From positions 1-47,119 of the forward strand of contig JAQXHF010000027.1 in NCBI GenBank assembly GCA_029007095.1: DNA of 47,119 nt. Direction: 5' to 3'. Source of the stretch: Clostridia bacterium (GTDB lineage Bacteria > Bacillota > Clostridia > Oscillospirales > Acutalibacteraceae). The translations under genes and the position numbers were made by a program. Every line of letters begins with the position of its first letter. Within the stretch, counting starts at the first letter, position 1. The notes under the pieces are model-generated. The model saw only the letters and a list, made by a program, of their open reading frames with translations. It was not told the origin of the DNA and searched no databases. Shown piece by piece: positions 37,851 to 46,874 of the stretch.

Positions 37851-38522
37851 ATGAAAACCGTTGCGAGAATCAGAACGGATTTTCCGACTAAATTCGGAAT
37901 ACCGCGGCAAAGCGGAATGTGTGATGAGCTGAAAGCCGAGATAATTTTTGAACCGGAATTCAGAGCGCGCGAAGCAGTCAGAGGTATAGAGGATTTCTCG
38001 CACCTTTGGCTGATATGGGGCTTTTCGGAGGTTAAAGGAGATAATTATTCGCCGACGGTCAGACCGCCTAAGCTCGGCGGCAACAAACGAATGGGCGTGT
38101 TTGCAACTCGTTCACCTTTCAGACCGAACCGAATGGGACTTTCCTGCGTTAAGCTTCTTTCGGTCAGGTACACCGAGCAAGATGGAACAATCTTGACCGT
38201 GTCGGGCGCAGATATGGTTGACGGCACACCGATTTATGATATCAAGCCGTATGTACCATATACCGATTGCCATACCGAGGCTACCGGAGGATTCTCAAAA
38301 GAGCCGGATTTCGGCAGATTGAAAGTTATATTGCCCACCGAGCTTGCCGAAAAATTACCGCGAGAAAAAATCAACGCTCTGACAGAGGTATTGTCACTTG
38401 ATCCTCGCCCCGGATATATCGACGAGCCGGACAGAGTTTACGGCTTCGGATTTGCAGGCTTTGAAGTGAAATTTAAGGTAGAATCCGATGTGCTTACTGT
38501 GACGGATTTACAAAAAATATGA
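37851..38522 (+). CDS. trmO: tRNA (N6-threonylcarbamoyladenosine(37)-N6)-methyltransferase
   Basis: RTDFPTKFGIPRQSG, GVFATRSPFRPNRMGLS, DMVDGTPIYDIKPY. Confidence 0.93.
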   Translation: MKTVARIRTDFPTKFGIPRQSGMCDELKAEIIFEPEFRAREAVRGIEDFSHLWLIWGFSEVKGDNYSPTVRPPKLGGNKRMGVFATRSPFRPNRMGLSCVKLLSVRYTEQDGTILTVSGADMVDGTPIYDIKPYVPYTDCHTEATGGFSKEPDFGRLKVILPTELAEKLPREKINALTEVLSLDPRPGYIDEPDRVYGFGFAGFEVKFKVESDVLTVTDLQKI

Positions 38523-38541
38523 ATATTTATGCGTAAAAGTA

Positions 38542-38570
38542 TTGACACGGCCTGAATACGGTGTTATAAT
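38542..38570 (+). promoter_or_regulatory. Consensus SigA promoter of the aromatic operon
   Basis: TTGACA - exactly 17 nt - TATAAT. Confidence 0.92.
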
Positions 38571-38597
38571 TTCTCCAACAAATTAAGGAGAAAAGCA

Positions 38598-38657
38598 ATG
38601 AACAAAGTCGCATTCACAGCTTCATACTTTTACTTTTACTTTATCAACAAAAGTTGA
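38598..38657 (+). CDS. Leader peptide MNKVAFTASYFYFYFINKS (attenuator)
   Basis: AAGGAG SD at 38585-38590, ATG 38598, TGA 38655-38657; 7 of 19 residues are Phe/Tyr, with a YFYFYF run; sits between promoter and terminator upstream of aroF. Confidence 0.9.
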   Translation: MNKVAFTASYFYFYFINKS

Positions 38658-38697
38658 TAGGGTTTGTAGGTTTTGCTGTGAAATGAGAATCGGATAC

Positions 38698-38730
38698 AAT
38701 CCGCAGTGAAATTTACACTGCGGATTTTTT
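38698..38730 (+). terminator. Attenuator terminator of the aromatic operon
   Basis: AATCCGCAGTG AAATTTA CACTGCGGATT TTTT, perfect 11-bp stem 25 bp upstream of aroF ATG. Confidence 0.93.
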
Positions 38731-38755
38731 GTTGTCGCTTGGGAGGTAACATAAA

Positions 38756-39760
38756 ATGGTAGTTGTATTAAAAAAGAATACGGACGAGGCTCAGGTCGAG
38801 AACCTCGTAAACTGGCTCAAATCTTTGAATATTGATGTTCACCGCAGTAACGGCGAATACGAAACTGTTTTGGGACTGGTCGGTGACACAAGTCATGTTG
38901 ATATAGATCTTGTGAGCAGTCTTGACATCGTTGATAATGTTACGAGAATTTCAGAACCTTATAAGAGTGCGAACAGAAAGTTCCATCCGGACGACACTGT
39001 TATTGATATAAACGGTTACAAGATAGGCGGAGGTAACTTTCAGTATATAGCCGGACCATGTTCCGTTGAGTCAGAAGAGCAGATTTGCTCTATCGCTTCT
39101 GATGTAAAGGCCGCGGGCGCGAATATGCTCAGAGGCGGAGCTTTCAAACCGAGAACTTCACCTTATGCGTTCCAGGGTATGAGAGGCGACGGACTTAAAC
39201 TTCTGGAAGAGGCTAAGAAGCAGACGGGTATGCCGATAGTTACCGAAATTATGGATATATCGCATCTCGACCTTTTTGAGAATGTTGATGTCATTCAGGT
39301 CGGCGCGAGAAATATGCAGAATTTTGAACTTCTCAAGGAGCTTGGACATACCGATAAGCCGATTTTGCTCAAAAGAGGACTTGCCAATACTATGCAGGAG
39401 CTTCTTATGAGTGCGGAATACATAATGGCAGGCGGTAACGAGAAAGTTATTCTCTGCGAAAGAGGTATAAGAACCTTTGAAACCTACACGAGAAACACGC
39501 TTGATATTTCCGCAGTTCCTCTGCTTAAAGAGAAAACTCATCTCCCGGTAATAGTTGATCCGAGTCATGCCGCAGGAATTGCAAGACTTGTTCGTCCGCT
39601 TTCTCTTGCAGCGGTTGCGGCCGGTGCAGACGGACTTATGATAGAAGTTCATAACGATCCGGCTCACGCTCTCTGCGACGGACCGCAGGCATTGACTCCT
39701 CCGCAGTTTGCCGAGGTAGTTAAAAAAGCCGAAGCAATACGCAGCGCTATGTGCGATTAA
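38756..39760 (+). CDS. aroF: 3-deoxy-7-phosphoheptulonate synthase with N-terminal ferredoxin-like regulatory domain
   Basis: GPCSVESEEQ, RGGAFKPRTSPYAFQG, VIVDPSHAAG; N-terminal domain MVVVLKKN...EPYKSANRKFHPDDTVID as in T. maritima-type DAHPS. Confidence 0.96.
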   Translation: MVVVLKKNTDEAQVENLVNWLKSLNIDVHRSNGEYETVLGLVGDTSHVDIDLVSSLDIVDNVTRISEPYKSANRKFHPDDTVIDINGYKIGGGNFQYIAGPCSVESEEQICSIASDVKAAGANMLRGGAFKPRTSPYAFQGMRGDGLKLLEEAKKQTGMPIVTEIMDISHLDLFENVDVIQVGARNMQNFELLKELGHTDKPILLKRGLANTMQELLMSAEYIMAGGNEKVILCERGIRTFETYTRNTLDISAVPLLKEKTHLPVIVDPSHAAGIARLVRPLSLAAVAAGADGLMIEVHNDPAHALCDGPQALTPPQFAEVVKKAEAIRSAMCD

Positions 39761-39778: not shown

Positions 39779-40612
39779 ATGAATGTTGGAATAGTCGGTC
39801 TTGGACTTATCGGCGGTTCGCTTGCAAGAGCTGTCAAAGAGATGACCGAGCATACGCTTTATGCTTATGATATATCCGTTCCGTCTATGCTTGCGGCAAA
39901 GATGGTAGGATCGTGCGACGGTGAACTGAATGAGGAAACCTTGCCGCTTTGCGATATTGTTATGATTTCAACCTATCCGCAGGCTGCGATAGATTATGTC
40001 AAAGCGAATAAGGAAAACTTTAAAAAAGGAGCTGTTGTTATCGACTGCTGCGGCGTAAAGAGAGTCGTCTGTGACGCCCTTACGGATTTAGCGGAGGAAA
40101 ACGGATTTATTTTCATCGGCGGTCATCCGATGGCAGGTACTCAGTTCTGGGGATTTGAACATTCAAGAGCGAGCTTGTTTAAGGGAGCTTCGATGATTTT
40201 GGCTCCCGGTCACAAAATTTCCGATATAAATTTACTTGATAAGCTGAGAACATTTTTCCTTGAACTTGGATTCGGTACGCTTACGATAACTACTCCCGAC
40301 GATCACGACAGGATAATTGCTTATACATCTCAGCTTGCACACATTGTTTCAAACGCTTATGTAAAAAGTCCGACAGCTCTTAACCGTAAAGGCTTCTCTG
40401 CCGGAAGTTACCGCGATATGACGAGGGTTGCAAAGCTGAATGTCGATATGTGGACTGAGCTTTTCCTTGAAAACGGCGACTATCTTGCGGACGAAATAGA
40501 CCTTCTTACAGAAAATCTGAAACAATACAGCGAGGCTATCCGCGCAAATGATGAAGAAAAACTGAAAAAATTGCTTCAAGACGGTAAAGATACAAAGAAG
40601 CAGGCAGGTTAA
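39779..40612 (+). CDS. tyrA: Prephenate dehydrogenase
   Basis: VGIVGLGLIGGSLARAVK; GGHPMAGTQFWGFEHS; 277 aa, no ACT domain. Confidence 0.93.
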   Translation: MNVGIVGLGLIGGSLARAVKEMTEHTLYAYDISVPSMLAAKMVGSCDGELNEETLPLCDIVMISTYPQAAIDYVKANKENFKKGAVVIDCCGVKRVVCDALTDLAEENGFIFIGGHPMAGTQFWGFEHSRASLFKGASMILAPGHKISDINLLDKLRTFFLELGFGTLTITTPDDHDRIIAYTSQLAHIVSNAYVKSPTALNRKGFSAGSYRDMTRVAKLNVDMWTELFLENGDYLADEIDLLTENLKQYSEAIRANDEEKLKKLLQDGKDTKKQAG

Positions 40613-40649: not shown

Positions 40650-41705
40650 ATGGGTGTATTTATGGAAAAGGTCAGTGTAAACGCCTCAAAGCAGTATGAT
40701 GTCATAATCGGTTACGATACCATCGCTCTGCTCGGCAGTAAAATTAAAAGTATGTTTCCGTCGTCCAATGTGTGCATTGTTTCGGACGACAGAGTGGCTT
40801 CGTTTCATATTGATAAGGTGAAAGCCATTCTTGACGATAACGGCATAGCTAACGAAGCATTTGTTTTCCCGAACGGAGAGAAATCAAAGTGTCCTCAGGT
40901 GCTTTTTGAGCTTCTTGAATTTCTTGCGGAGAAGCATTTTTCAAGGCGCGATGTACTTGTTGCACTCGGCGGCGGCGTAACCGGCGACCTTACGGGACTT
41001 GCGGCGGCTATGTTTATGAGAGGTATGCACCTGATTCAGATCCCGACAACTCTGCTGGCAATGGTAGATTCCTCTGTTGGCGGAAAAACCGCGGTAAATC
41101 TTGAAGCCGGAAAAAATCTTGCCGGTGTTTTCAATCAGCCCGAATTGGTGCTTTGCGATACTCAGATGCTTCTAACCTTGCCGAAAGAGATTTTTGCGGA
41201 CGGTATGGCTGAGGTTATCAAATACGGCGTTATCGCCGATAAGGAGCTTTTTGAAATCGTCAAAGACGGTGAAATACAGAATAATCTTGAAAAAATCATC
41301 GCACGATGTGTTTCTATCAAGAGAGATATAGTTAACGAGGACGAGTTCGATACAGGCAGACGCCAGCTTCTGAATTTCGGACATACGATAGCTCACGCGA
41401 TTGAAAAGAACAGTAATTTTGAGATAAGCCATGGCAGCGCGGTTGCTGTCGGAATGGTTATAATGTCGGAAGTCGCTTATAAAAACGGACTTACACAGGT
41501 TGATTGCAGCGGTGAAATTATCGACGCGCTTTTAGAAAATCATCTGCCTATAAGCTGTCCGTATAAGAACAGCGAGCTTTACGAAGCAACAATTTCTGAT
41601 AAAAAATGTGCCGGCGGCAGAATTTCTATAATAATCCCGGACGCTATCGGCAAATGTTCGGCTAAAAACATTTCAATAGAAGAATTGAAGGGATTGCTTG
41701 CTTGA
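40650..41705 (+). CDS. aroB: 3-dehydroquinate synthase
   Basis: VALGGGVTGDLTGLAAAMFMRGM, PTTLLAMVDSSVGGKTAVN, NFGHTIAHAIE; start may be 40650 or 40662. Confidence 0.96.
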   Translation: MGVFMEKVSVNASKQYDVIIGYDTIALLGSKIKSMFPSSNVCIVSDDRVASFHIDKVKAILDDNGIANEAFVFPNGEKSKCPQVLFELLEFLAEKHFSRRDVLVALGGGVTGDLTGLAAAMFMRGMHLIQIPTTLLAMVDSSVGGKTAVNLEAGKNLAGVFNQPELVLCDTQMLLTLPKEIFADGMAEVIKYGVIADKELFEIVKDGEIQNNLEKIIARCVSIKRDIVNEDEFDTGRRQLLNFGHTIAHAIEKNSNFEISHGSAVAVGMVIMSEVAYKNGLTQVDCSGEIIDALLENHLPISCPYKNSELYEATISDKKCAGGRISIIIPDAIGKCSAKNISIEELKGLLA

Positions 41706-42940
41706 TGGATATTAAGATAAATCCGAAAACTCTCTGCGGTTCGGTCGAAGCTCCTGCGTCTAAATCTGTCGCACATCGTATGCTTATATGCGCCGCGCTT
41801 GCCGACGGTAAAAGTACGGTCAGGATAAACGCCGATTCCGAGGATATAGAAGCGACGGCAAACTGCCTGAGATCAATCGGAACTAAAATAGATGTTAACG
41901 GGAGCGAGTGGAGCGTAACTCCGCCGGATAGACTGCCCGAAAAAGCCTTGCTTGACTGCGGAGAAAGCGGTTCGACTTTAAGGTTTATGCTGCCGGTTGC
42001 CGCCGCTCTCGGAATAGAAGCGACCTTCACGGGCAGAGGAAGACTGCCGTCAAGACCGGTGGGAATCCTCCTTGACGCTATGGAACAGCACGGAGTTACG
42101 GTTGTTTCGCGTGATTTCCCGATACATATTAAAGGGCGGCTTCAAAGCGGCGAATATTCCGTCGCAGGAAATGTCAGCTCGCAGTTTATAACAGGTCTGT
42201 TGCTGGCTTTGTCTGTTTGCGACGGAGAGAGCAGAATCAAGCTCATTCCACCGGTGGAATCGCGCTCATATATAAATATAACGCTTAGCGTTTTATCAAA
42301 TTTTGGAGTTAAGGTTAAACAGTTGGAAAACGAGTACATATTAAACGGCGGTTCTTTAAAAAGCGGAGATTTCACGGCCGAGGGAGACTGGTCAAACGCC
42401 GCATTCTGGCTTGCGGCAGGGATTGAAGTGAGCGGACTTAATGCAGATTCAGTACAGGGAGATAAAGCCGTTTTGCGAGAGCTTCATAATTTCGGAGCAG
42501 AAATTACAAACAGCGGAAACTGCTTTAAGGCAGATGTATCAAAGCTTCGCGGGATTCGCATTGACGCTTCGGATATACCCGACCTTGTGCCGATAATATC
42601 GGTGGCGGCAGCCTGTGCGGACGGAGAAACCGTAATATATAACGCGTCCAGGCTTCGCCTTAAAGAGAGCGACAGAATAGAAACCACAGTCCGTCTGATA
42701 AACGACCTCGGCGGCGAAGCGTACGCTACGGATGACGGACTTGTCATAAAAGGAAAGAAAAAACTTACGGGAGGAACGGTTGACGGCTGCGGCGACCACA
42801 GAATAGTGATGTCTGCGGCGATTGCGTCCTGCAAATGCGAAGAAGCGGTTGTAATAAAGGGCGCACAGGCAGTATCAAAATCATATCCTGAGTTTTTCAA
42901 TCGGTTCAATTCTATTGGAGGTGAAGCAGATGTCATGTAG
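41705..42940 (+). CDS. aroA: 3-phosphoshikimate 1-carboxyvinyltransferase (EPSP synthase)
   Basis: ASKSVAHRMLICAAL, DCGESGSTLRFMLPVAA, GRGRLPSRP; TGATG overlap with aroB stop. Confidence 0.96.
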   Translation: MDIKINPKTLCGSVEAPASKSVAHRMLICAALADGKSTVRINADSEDIEATANCLRSIGTKIDVNGSEWSVTPPDRLPEKALLDCGESGSTLRFMLPVAAALGIEATFTGRGRLPSRPVGILLDAMEQHGVTVVSRDFPIHIKGRLQSGEYSVAGNVSSQFITGLLLALSVCDGESRIKLIPPVESRSYINITLSVLSNFGVKVKQLENEYILNGGSLKSGDFTAEGDWSNAAFWLAAGIEVSGLNADSVQGDKAVLRELHNFGAEITNSGNCFKADVSKLRGIRIDASDIPDLVPIISVAAACADGETVIYNASRLRLKESDRIETTVRLINDLGGEAYATDDGLVIKGKKKLTGGTVDGCGDHRIVMSAAIASCKCEEAVVIKGAQAVSKSYPEFFNRFNSIGGEADVM

Positions 42941-44000
42941 CTTCGGAGAAAAATATAAAATTACCATCTTCGGTCAGTCTCATTCTGAGGCTATCGGAGT
43001 TGTTATTGACGGAATACCTGCCGGAATAAAGCTCGATATGGAAAAAATCCTTGCATTTATGGCGAGGCGCGCTCCGGGCGGAAAAGCCTATGCAACGAGA
43101 AGAAATGAATCGGATTACCCGAATATCGTATCAGGCGTAGTTGACGGAGTTACCTGCGGCGCACCGCTGTGCGCTGTGATTGTAAATAGCGACCAACATT
43201 CTTCTGATTATAATAAACTTAAATATCTTCCGAGACCGTCTCACGCCGATTTTGCCGCATATATGAAGCATAACGGCTTTAACGATATTAGAGGCGGCGG
43301 CAATTTTTCCGGCAGAATGACAGCGCCTATGTGTTTTGCAGGCGCGGTTGCAATGCAGATACTTCAAGAAAAAGGAATTACTGTCGGAGCGCATATTTCG
43401 AGTATAGCGGGAATCGCAGATTCTTCATTTGATCCAGTAAATGTTTCCGCTGACGAGCTTAATGAGATAAAAGTTAAGAGCTTCCCTGTAATCGACGGTG
43501 AAAAAGGTGAAGAAATGCTCGCTGAAATCGAAAAGGCGAGAATGTCGCTTGATTCGGTCGGCGGCGTCATTGAATGTGCCGCTGTCGGCCTTAAACCCGG
43601 CATAGGCGAGCCTGTTTTTGACGGAATGGAAAATGTGATAAGCAGTGCTGTCTTTGGCGTACCTGCCGTAAAGGGTATCGAATTCGGAAACGGTTTCGCC
43701 TGCACAAAGCTCAGAGGAAGCGAAAACAACGATCCTTTTGTTATGGATGGCGACGAGGTTAAGACTCTTACTAATAATCACGGCGGAATCCTCGGCGGAA
43801 TTTCATCGGGAATGCCGATTATTTTCCGCGTTGCAATGAAGCCGACCGCTTCTGTTTCGGTCGAGCAGAGGACAGTAAATCTTAAAGAAAAGAAAGAAGA
43901 AAATCTTGTTATCGGCGGCAGACATGATCCGTGCATAGTGCCGAGAGCCGTTCCGTGCATTGAAGCAGCGACGGCGATAGCTATAATAAATCTTCTGTAA
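42930..44000 (+). CDS. aroC: Chorismate synthase
   Basis: GQSHSEAIGVVIDGIPAG, RPSHADF, RGGGNFSGR; ATG 42930 after GGAGGTG inside the 3' end of aroA. Confidence 0.96.
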   Translation: MSCSFGEKYKITIFGQSHSEAIGVVIDGIPAGIKLDMEKILAFMARRAPGGKAYATRRNESDYPNIVSGVVDGVTCGAPLCAVIVNSDQHSSDYNKLKYLPRPSHADFAAYMKHNGFNDIRGGGNFSGRMTAPMCFAGAVAMQILQEKGITVGAHISSIAGIADSSFDPVNVSADELNEIKVKSFPVIDGEKGEEMLAEIEKARMSLDSVGGVIECAAVGLKPGIGEPVFDGMENVISSAVFGVPAVKGIEFGNGFACTKLRGSENNDPFVMDGDEVKTLTNNHGGILGGISSGMPIIFRVAMKPTASVSVEQRTVNLKEKKEENLVIGGRHDPCIVPRAVPCIEAATAIAIINLL

Positions 44001-44080: not shown

Positions 44081-45217
44081 ATGGACATTAAGGAACTCAG
44101 GAACGAGATAGACAGCATCGACAGCCAAATCGTCAAACTCTTTGAGCGCAGAATGGAAACGGCGGCACAGATTGCACAGTATAAAAAGGATAACGGTTTG
44201 CCTGTTTATGACCGCAGCCGCGAGCGTGAGGTTATAAACAAGGTAACTTCGATGGTTAAGCCGGAATTCAGCGGATACACAAAGGTTTTTTACCAGACGA
44301 TGTTTGATGTCAGCAGTTCATATCAGCGCAAGATGAATTCGGGCAAGTCAAAGCTCTGCGAAAAGATTGAGCGAATTACTGCCGAAACTCCGCAGATAAG
44401 ACCGGACAGAGCCGTGGTAGCTTGTCAGGGCGTAGAGGGAGCTTATTCACAACACGCCTGCGACAAAATGTTTGCGTATCCGACGATAATGTATTTCAGC
44501 ACCTTTGAGGATGTTTTCAAGGCGGTTAACAGCGGACTTTGCCGCTATGGAGTGCTGCCTGTCGAGAATAGCACGGCAGGTTCGGTAAATCAGGTTTACG
44601 ACCTTATGAGCAAGTACCGTTTTTACATTACCCACAGTATGAAAATGTGTATAGAGCATACTCTGCTCGGCAATGAGGGTGCAGTTGAGAGCGGTTTGAA
44701 AGAAATTTACTCTCACGAGCAGGCGATAAACCAGTGCGCCGATTATATAAACAAACTCGGCGTTAAGGTGAAAATCTGTAAAAATACAGCGGAAGCGGCA
44801 AAACTCGTTGCCGAATCGGGCAGAACCGATGTAGCCGCTATCGGTTCAAAGGACTGTGCAGACCTTTACGGACTCAATATAATTTCGAGCAGTATCCAGA
44901 ATACCGAGAATAATTATACAAGATTTATATGTATTTCAAAAAACCCCGAAATTTATCCGGGCGCAAAAAAGACGAGTATTATGCTGACTCTTGCACATAA
45001 GCCGGGTTCGCTTTACGGCATAATTGCGAGATTTGCCGCACTCGGACTTAACCTGACCAAGCTTGAAAGCCGCCCGATTGCGGGAAGCAATTTTGAGTTT
45101 ATGTTCTACTTTGATATTGATGCCTCCGTTTATTCGCCTGAGCTTAAAGAGCTTATTTCCGAGCTTGAAAATGACGGAGAAGTATTTACCTATCTCGGAA
45201 GCTATACCGAGGACTGA
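44081..45217 (+). CDS. pheA: Bifunctional chorismate mutase / prephenate dehydratase
   Basis: N-terminal chorismate mutase helix (ELRNEIDSIDSQIVKLFERRM), PDT motifs (GVEGAYSQ, VLPVENSTAGSVNQVYDLM), C-terminal ACT domain with ESRP. Confidence 0.95.
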   Translation: MDIKELRNEIDSIDSQIVKLFERRMETAAQIAQYKKDNGLPVYDRSREREVINKVTSMVKPEFSGYTKVFYQTMFDVSSSYQRKMNSGKSKLCEKIERITAETPQIRPDRAVVACQGVEGAYSQHACDKMFAYPTIMYFSTFEDVFKAVNSGLCRYGVLPVENSTAGSVNQVYDLMSKYRFYITHSMKMCIEHTLLGNEGAVESGLKEIYSHEQAINQCADYINKLGVKVKICKNTAEAAKLVAESGRTDVAAIGSKDCADLYGLNIISSSIQNTENNYTRFICISKNPEIYPGAKKTSIMLTLAHKPGSLYGIIARFAALGLNLTKLESRPIAGSNFEFMFYFDIDASVYSPELKELISELENDGEVFTYLGSYTED

Positions 45218-45231
45218 CGGAGATGATTTAT

Positions 45232-46455
45232 ATGTTCGGTTTGTTGGGCAGAAAATTAGGTCACAGCCTTTCACCGCAGATACACGCCCTCTTCGGGGAC
45301 TACCCCTACGAGCTTTTTTGCAGAGAGCCGGAGGAGCTTGACGACTTTTTTTCTGACAAATCAATAAAAGGCTTTAATGTTACGATTCCGTACAAAGTCA
45401 ATGCTTACGGCTACTGCGACGAGGTTTCCGAGACGGCAAAAAAAATCGGCAGCGTAAATACCGTTATACGCAGAAACGACGGTACGCTGTACGGAGATAA
45501 TACCGATTATTTCGGATTCAGCTATAGGGCGAAAAAAAACGGAGCCGATATCAGGGATAAAAAGGTAATTGTACTCGGAAGCGGTGGCGCAAGCCGTACT
45601 GTGTGCGAGGTTTCCAAGGACAGCGGCGCGGCGCAGACGATAGTTGTCAGCCGTTCGGGTGAAAATAATTACGACAATATCGAGCGAAACTATGACGCCG
45701 ATATCATTGTCAACACTACTCCGGTAGGAATGTACCCCAATAACGGGGAAAGGCTTATTGACCTTTCAAAATTTACTAGATGCCATTGTGTGCTTGACCT
45801 GATTTACAATCCGGCTAAAACGGCGCTTTTGCTCGACACAGAGAAGCTTAATATACCGTGCGGAAACGGATTGACTATGCTCGTAGCTCAGGCTCTGCGC
45901 TCAGCGGAGCAGTTTTTAAATAAAAAATTTGACGACAGCATAATTGACGAGGTATATGAAAAGATAATTTTCGGTCAGAAAAACATCGTTCTTATCGGTA
46001 TGCCCGGCTGCGGTAAATCAACCCTCGGAGAGCTTCTTTCAAAGGAGCTTGGCAGGGAGGTCGTTGACACCGACGCCGAGATAGTTAAAGCCGACGGAAG
46101 AAGCATACCTGAAATATTCAACTCAGACGGAGAAACTGTTTTCCGCGAGCTTGAAGCGAAAGCCGTTGCCGAAACCGGTAAGCAAATCGGTAAAATTATC
46201 GCAACGGGCGGCGGAGCTGTGATGCGCGAGGACAACCGCCGTGCGCTTAAACAGAACGGAACTGTCATTTATCTCAAAAAGCCGCTGTCAGGACTTGCTC
46301 TTGACGGCAGACCTCTTTCAAAAGATGCAGAAGCCGTTGCTAAAATATATGAGACGCGAAAATCTACATACGAAGCGCTTGCCGACTGCACGGTAGATGT
46401 CAGCGCCGATCCTCAAATAACGCTTGGGAGGGTGTTAAAATGCATATCCTTGTAA
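45232..46455 (+). CDS. Shikimate dehydrogenase - shikimate kinase fusion (AroE-AroK)
   Basis: N-terminal AroE (GLLGRKLGHSLSP, FNVTIPYK, NTDYFGF, LGSGGASR); C-terminal AroK from about residue 250 (LIGMPGCGKSTLG, DTDAEI, FRELE, ATGGGAV, DGRPLS) in one uninterrupted ORF. Confidence 0.94.
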   Translation: MFGLLGRKLGHSLSPQIHALFGDYPYELFCREPEELDDFFSDKSIKGFNVTIPYKVNAYGYCDEVSETAKKIGSVNTVIRRNDGTLYGDNTDYFGFSYRAKKNGADIRDKKVIVLGSGGASRTVCEVSKDSGAAQTIVVSRSGENNYDNIERNYDADIIVNTTPVGMYPNNGERLIDLSKFTRCHCVLDLIYNPAKTALLLDTEKLNIPCGNGLTMLVAQALRSAEQFLNKKFDDSIIDEVYEKIIFGQKNIVLIGMPGCGKSTLGELLSKELGREVVDTDAEIVKADGRSIPEIFNSDGETVFRELEAKAVAETGKQIGKIIATGGGAVMREDNRRALKQNGTVIYLKKPLSGLALDGRPLSKDAEAVAKIYETRKSTYEALADCTVDVSADPQITLGRVLKCISL

Positions 46456-46874
46456 TAAACGGGCCGAATCTTAATATGCTCGGCATCCGTGAACCTGATA
46501 TCTACGGCAGGAAAACATATGCGGATCTTTGCGAATTTATAAGCGCTCAAGCCGAAAAAGAAAATGTTGCCGTTGAGTTTTATCAGTCAAATCACGAGGG
46601 CGGAATAGTGGATAAAATTCAGGAGGCTTACGGAAAGGCAGACGGAATTATAATAAATCCGGGAGCTTATACGCACACGAGCGTAGCCATACTCGATGCA
46701 CTCAAAGCCGTCGGCATTCCGACCTGCGAAATTCATATTTCCGATGTCAATGCCAGAGAGCCGTTCCGCAGCATATCGTATGTCGGTATGTATGCGGAAA
46801 AAACATATGCCGGTTACGGCTTCAACGGATATACGATGGCGCTGAGCTATCTCAATGAAAAATACGGAAAATAA
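46440..46874 (+). CDS. aroQ: 3-dehydroquinate dehydratase, type II
   Basis: ILVINGPNLNMLGIREPDIYG, YQSNHEGGIVDKIQEA, NPGAYTHTSVAILDAL. Confidence 0.96.
   Translation: MHILVINGPNLNMLGIREPDIYGRKTYADLCEFISAQAEKENVAVEFYQSNHEGGIVDKIQEAYGKADGIIINPGAYTHTSVAILDALKAVGIPTCEIHISDVNAREPFRSISYVGMYAEKTYAGYGFNGYTMALSYLNEKYGK

Follow-up and report, generated by a model that had tools for sequence, protein, structure and literature searches.

Immediately upstream of aroF, a Clostridia bacterium of the family Acutalibacteraceae very probably carries a ribosome-mediated transcription attenuator responsive to the charging of tRNA-Phe and tRNA-Tyr. The bacterium very probably switches its Phe/Tyr pathway according to the speed of ribosomes on a Tyr/Phe-rich leader peptide. 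The window, here meaning the whole stretch of DNA analysed, comprises 47,119 nt (contig JAQXHF010000027.1). Sequence and comparative computation directly show the parts of the attenuator, how far these are conserved, which alternative pairings they can form and how well the pairings are supported statistically; both the conservation of the leader and its pairings exceed by far what chance would produce.

Architecture of the aroF leader region

The locus contains, in this order, a promoter, a Shine-Dalgarno (SD) sequence, a leader ORF and an intrinsic terminator (Table 1), with the short, translatable ORF lying between promoter and terminator. These elements and the control codons lie exactly where the first-pass annotation of this DNA had placed them, and the perfect 11-bp terminator that it described is present. 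With a 17-nt spacer and no mismatch in the 12 consensus positions, the promoter is the sole promoter-like site within positions 38400-38800; similar promoters are also found 5' of the Tyr/Phe leaders of relatives. The leader ORF comprises 19 codons and ends in a TGA stop, followed by an in-frame TAG. The fold of the 169-nt leader has a predicted energy of -49.9 kcal/mol, compared with -31.7 kcal/mol (sd 4.0) for shuffled sequences (z = -4.6).

Table 1. Features of the proposed aroF attenuator, the downstream operon and the T-boxes of the same genome
Feature	Position	Strand	Basis or remark
Sigma-70-type promoter, TTGACA-17-TATAAT	38542..38570	+	-35 TTGACA 38542-38547, -10 TATAAT 38565-38570
Shine-Dalgarno AAGGAG of leader ORF	38585..38590	+	Sequence
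Leader ORF MNKVAFTASYFYFYFINKS	38598..38657	+	Sequence; Tyr/Phe run conserved in relatives
Region 1 TTCACAGC	38613..38620	+	Pairs with region 2; helix found unaided by RNAalifold
Control codons Tyr-Phe-Tyr-Phe-Tyr-Phe	38625..38642	+	Sequence; six alternating codons
Inner hairpin CTTTATCAAC(AAAA)GTTGATAGGG	38639..38662	+	Inside 1:2 stem-loop, directly 3' of control codons
Region 2 TTTTGCTGTGAA	38671..38682	+	Common to 1:2 (38675-38682) and 2:3 (38671-38680)
Intrinsic terminator 3:4	38698..38730	+	11-bp stem 38698-38726, 7-nt loop, then T-rich tail
Region 3 CGCAGTGAAA	38702..38711	+	Partner is region 2 or region 4
aroF, DAHP synthase, first operon gene	38756..39760	+	NF006421, 497 bits
tyrA, prephenate dehydrogenase family	39779..40612	+	Top NCBIfam matches are all prephenate dehydrogenases but fall short of the cut-offs
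aroB, 3-dehydroquinate synthase	40650..41705	+	TIGR01357 over cut-off
aroA, EPSP synthase	41702..42940	+	TIGR01356 over cut-off
aroC, chorismate synthase	42915..44000	+	TIGR00033 over cut-off
pheA, chorismate mutase/prephenate dehydratase	44081..45217	+	Profile match
aroE-aroK fusion, shikimate dehydrogenase/shikimate kinase	45223..46455	+	Profile match
aroQ, type II 3-dehydroquinate dehydratase	46440..46874	+	TIGR01088 over cut-off
T-boxes of pheS and trpE	L149:2574-2796 and L132:2047-2291 (minus strand)		Rfam search

The downstream operon is complete (aroF-tyrA-aroB-aroA-aroC-pheA-aroE/K-aroQ), its products being Phe and Tyr. The match between leader and operon that had been pointed out holds, as the six control codons are all Tyr or Phe and both tyrA and pheA belong to the operon. 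We considered whether the lack of Trp codons reflects an inability of the organism to synthesize Trp and rejected this explanation, since Trp genes are present elsewhere in the window's genome, namely trpE (L132) and a trpC-F-B-A run (L274). A trpE match is missing in most other genus members.

On its 5' side, the attenuator adjoins trmO (37851-38522), which encodes a tRNA m6t6A methyltransferase (TIGR00104); this adjacency is probably coincidental. Lying between two same-strand genes, the terminator might merely end trmO transcription, with the small ORF being accidental, but a perfect promoter separates trmO from the terminator, relatives with other upstream genes have the same leader and terminator before aroF, and the Tyr/Phe ORF is conserved, with a chance rate near zero. 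This explanation is, therefore, extremely unlikely.

Alternative pairings and predicted folds

Region 1 is complementary to GCTGTGAA within region 2, as the first reading of the sequence had proposed. The 2:3 pairing also exists, but duplex folding extends it to up to 12 bp rather than the 9 bp first claimed. Duplex energies are -13.0 kcal/mol for 1:2, -12.9 for 2:3 and -19.1 for 3:4, and the three pairings are mutually exclusive, as in attenuators of the trp/phe/his type. The energy of the window's own 2:3 pairing compared with shuffled spacers is suggestive only (p = 0.07). The inner hairpin, which is conserved, had been missed in the first-pass annotation.

In the fold model, the naked transcript up to region 3 folds as the 1:2 hairpin together with the inner hairpin. 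Region 1 ends 4 nt 5' of the first control codon and region 2 starts ~28 nt after the last, a geometry in which a ribosome on the control codons masks region 1 and not region 2. When a stalled ribosome was modelled by masking all RNA as far as 13 nt beyond the A-site codon's first base, a stall at any of the six control codons left region 2 exposed, and 2:3 was the predicted fold before region 4 exists. The models behave as the originally suggested switching scheme requires, forming 2:3 with region 1 masked and 1:2 with region 1 unmasked. Folds that include region 4 always favour the terminator energetically, so the decision must be kinetic, as in trp. With a ribosome still at the stop codon, region 2 would only just be accessible (from 38672); thus, termination after full translation would need ribosome release and refolding to 1:2. 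This dependence of the high-amino-acid state on quick ribosome release is a weak point of the model.

Conservation and covariation within the genus

AroF was found in 14 of 18 genus genomes, and 13 of the 14 readable aroF upstream regions in the genus keep a Tyr/Phe leader. The leaders are mostly of the type MKRNVFAAEYFYFYFINKS, with four of other types, such as MFNRFYNEYFYYYFIRYNDKVCFPAVRIAR. Tyr and Phe codons swap among genus members (YFYFYF, YFFFYF, YFYFFF) within a run that remains aromatic, and the gene 5' of the leader varies, as read from the sequences. In the same-genus exception (L009:1340-1510), all Tyr/Phe codons are lost and a stop occurs before region 1, with 1:2 and the terminator kept. 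This leader looks like a natural loss of the sensor and is predicted to be locked or unregulated.

Covariation was evaluated on A2, an alignment of ten genus-type sequences, in which the SD is conserved. On the structure formed by 1:2, the inner hairpin and 3:4, 95.3% of the cells are paired, and 7 pairs changed on both sides, accounting for 12 such cells; none of 500 shuffles reached these values, and slid versions of the structure pair 28-48%. Changes on both sides affect 2 of the 8 pairs of the 1:2 helix and 3 pairs of the terminator, and the inner hairpin shows a compensatory C-G/U-A change (columns 60:71). RNAalifold recovered the same structure unaided. Covariation of 2:3 was also sought within the genus and none was visible, the helix being almost invariant. 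The comparison of relatives that the first-pass annotation had put forward is, therefore, favourable for the leader ORF, the Tyr/Phe run, 1:2 and 3:4, which are conserved or covary, but not for covariation of 2:3 in the genus. Homologous loci devoid of a conserved leader ORF or pairings, named there as evidence that would speak against an attenuator, are not what the relatives display.

An RNA model (R1) was run over 60 relatives, and its matches within the genus were aroF leaders only. Weak matches outside the genus were rejected as leaders where checked (L267, L270, L272 and L273), these being ordinary 3' terminators.

Distribution of the leader across Clostridia

Using strict criteria (ATG, SD and at least five Phe/Tyr in nine codons), we detected a Tyr/Phe leader ORF in 82 of 123 aroF upstream regions from relatives and named records, compared with 0 of 123 reverse complements and 3 of 1230 dinucleotide shuffles. 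In a class sample of 80 aroF upstream regions drawn from Clostridia, a relaxed scan matched 32 of the 80 reverse complements and was, therefore, replaced by the strict criteria, which identified the leader in 44 regions across 23 of 38 families (reverse complements, 1/80; dinucleotide shuffles, 4/800). Named hosts include Oscillibacter valericigenes (L096), Angelakisella massiliensis (L048) and Bittarella massiliensis (L115).

Close AroF relatives were also present in records titled Treponema, Lentisphaerae, Planctomycetaceae, Kiritimatiellae and others (L079, L087, L093, L097, L104, L112, L118 and L126), some of them with Tyr/Phe leaders (L087, L112, L118 and L126). These records may reflect mislabelled bins or, alternatively, a transfer of the gene.

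Peptide length and sequence vary widely between families, and the Tyr/Phe run stays. This bears on the possibility that the product is a functional hydrophobic micropeptide, for instance a membrane peptide, with no regulatory read-out. The peptide is indeed short, hydrophobic and apparently translated; nevertheless, everything in it apart from the Tyr/Phe run varies freely, and its occurrence is linked to aroF and to a terminator/antiterminator, which leaves the micropeptide with hardly any probability and favours the attenuator.

Over a set of 100 leaders, which includes a few that are not true leaders, 1:2 was better than 95% of shuffled spacers in 58 and 2:3 in 37, and the two pairings use the same region 2/spacer bases in 93. 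In a swap test on 79 leaders, thinned of related sequences with some kinship remaining, a leader's own 1:2 and 2:3 pairings were better than the swapped-partner expectation by 3.3 and 3.2 kcal/mol, respectively, and none of 2000 permutations was as good as observed. As the partners were exchanged between loci, this shows that, between families, changes in region 2 are accompanied by changes in both region 1 and region 3.

T-boxes and further leader peptides

Amino acid control in Clostridia is usually described in terms of T-boxes. These occur directly 5' of aroF in two relatives (RF00230; L039 and L042), pointing to an exchange of sensors at the same gene, and, in the window's genome, before pheS (130.3 bits) and trpE (90.7 bits, slightly below the gathering score). 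Leader peptide and T-box thus appear to work side by side for aromatic amino acids in this genome. Given these T-boxes, the aroF terminator might itself be controlled without translation by a tRNA- or metabolite-binding riboswitch, either a T-box or an unknown aptamer, the ORF being incidental. The Rfam search, which the first-pass annotation had proposed, found no existing model matching the locus: neither a T-box (RF00230) nor any other relevant family was found at the gathering score or at E values up to 10, where the matches were chance ones only, and a Phe_leader covariance-model match was also missing, but the same search finds the pheS and trpE T-boxes. Moreover, what is conserved is an SD together with a reading frame that contains an aromatic run, and the encoded peptide is diverse across families. 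A riboswitch is, therefore, very unlikely, and translation of the leader remains the preferred basis of control.

Upstream of ilvB, three same-genus genomes (L314, L315 and L316) and two other families of the same order (L308 and L310) have an Ile/Val/Leu-rich leader ORF, such as MFSFAAQLGIIIINVINLVAVGLVDNAKDYAQRCQKAV, and a terminator, which would constitute a second type of leader-peptide attenuator in the group. The ilvB genes of G019, G024 and G048 (L301-L303) have a T-box-like sequence in place of the leader peptide. The scan found neither His-rich leaders before hisG nor Trp-rich leaders before trpE.

Predicted leaderless variants

Several loci that fail the SD criterion still have Tyr/Phe leaders before aroF. 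In L065, L069, L074, L086 and L107, the AUG lies 6-7 nt 3' of a TATAAT-like box, compared with mostly 26-35 nt in the SD type, so these leaders would be read from leaderless mRNA. This has a precedent in Corynebacterium glutamicum, where, to judge by the title of a paper in the reference list of PMC4046766, the ilvBNC leader peptide is formed in the absence of a ribosome binding site.

On a broader reading, for and against which we see equal grounds, aromatic leader-peptide attenuation at aroF would be an ancient system found throughout the class Clostridia, one that exists alongside T-boxes and replaces them, and that in some lineages uses leaderless mRNAs (AUG 6-7 nt after the -10 box), with ribosomes loading directly on the 5'-end AUG as the RNA emerges.

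Proposed mechanism and its relevance

Transcription start, leader translation, stalling and the regulatory response are the steps that we infer from the sequence. The leader transcript would start just after 38570, and a ribosome would load at 38585-38598 and translate the peptide while RNA polymerase proceeds. When Phe- or Tyr-tRNA is short, the ribosome would stall within the control codons, covering region 1, so that region 2 could pair with region 3 before region 4 is made; no terminator would then form, and the shikimate/Phe/Tyr operon would be transcribed. When both tRNAs are plentiful, or the leader is untranslated, 1:2 would pair, the inner hairpin close and 3:4 form, ending transcription near 38730.

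According to this scheme, a predicted Yanofsky-type attenuator would stand at the entrance to aromatic biosynthesis in a large part of the Clostridia, a dominant gut class, with a possible bearing on how gut bacteria adjust Phe and Tyr synthesis to supply. The presence in one genome of T-boxes at pheS and trpE versus a leader peptide at aroF raises the question of why each sensor was chosen. The class sample provides a data set for building a covariance model, for leader annotation and for tests of the mutual replacement of sensors.

Comparison with known systems

Enterobacterial pheA and pheST attenuators combine runs of control codons, mutually exclusive 1:2, 2:3 and 3:4 pairings and an intrinsic terminator before an aromatic operon. 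The window's leader resembles these systems (Rfam Phe_leader) in its leader peptide, exclusive pairings and terminator before an aromatic amino acid operon, but its Tyr and Phe codons alternate, and it would control the whole common pathway from aroF. T-box leaders (RF00230) likewise sense tRNA charging, through uncharged tRNA, and act on a terminator ahead of amino acid genes; they differ in binding tRNA directly, without translation, and in having no match at the window locus.

The first-pass annotation regarded leader-peptide attenuation as under-described in Firmicutes. This is right in substance, although precedents exist. Ribosome-mediated attenuation has genetic and mutational support in the Leu-rich ilv-leu attenuator of Staphylococcus aureus, which, unlike that of the window, senses Leu and has another operon and an unrelated sequence (PMC5794164), and His leader peptides are described in bacilli (PMC2965389). 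The uORFC-13-1 motif is described as a uORF that lies exclusively before aroF, contains one or more Phe codons and is accompanied by a promoter, an RBS and a terminator, with attenuation suggested; going by this description, it comprises 24 sequences from the genus Acholeplasma and environmental sources, its base-paired substructure is another one, and Tyr goes unmentioned (PMC8632094). Outside Firmicutes, the aroF gene of C. glutamicum is described as having a putative Phe-Tyr-Phe leader peptide before the DAHP synthase gene, detected as an attenuator-type transcript; the likeness is one of description, and C. glutamicum belongs to Actinobacteria, with aroF as one of two DAHP synthase genes (PMC4046766). 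Our search of the open-access literature found no report of leader-peptide attenuation at aroF in Clostridia. The type of mechanism is, thus, already known, and the window's leader, having the sequence-level features that define a trp/phe attenuator, would work like one; what appears to be new is a widespread Clostridia family with no Rfam model and with leaderless-mRNA variants.
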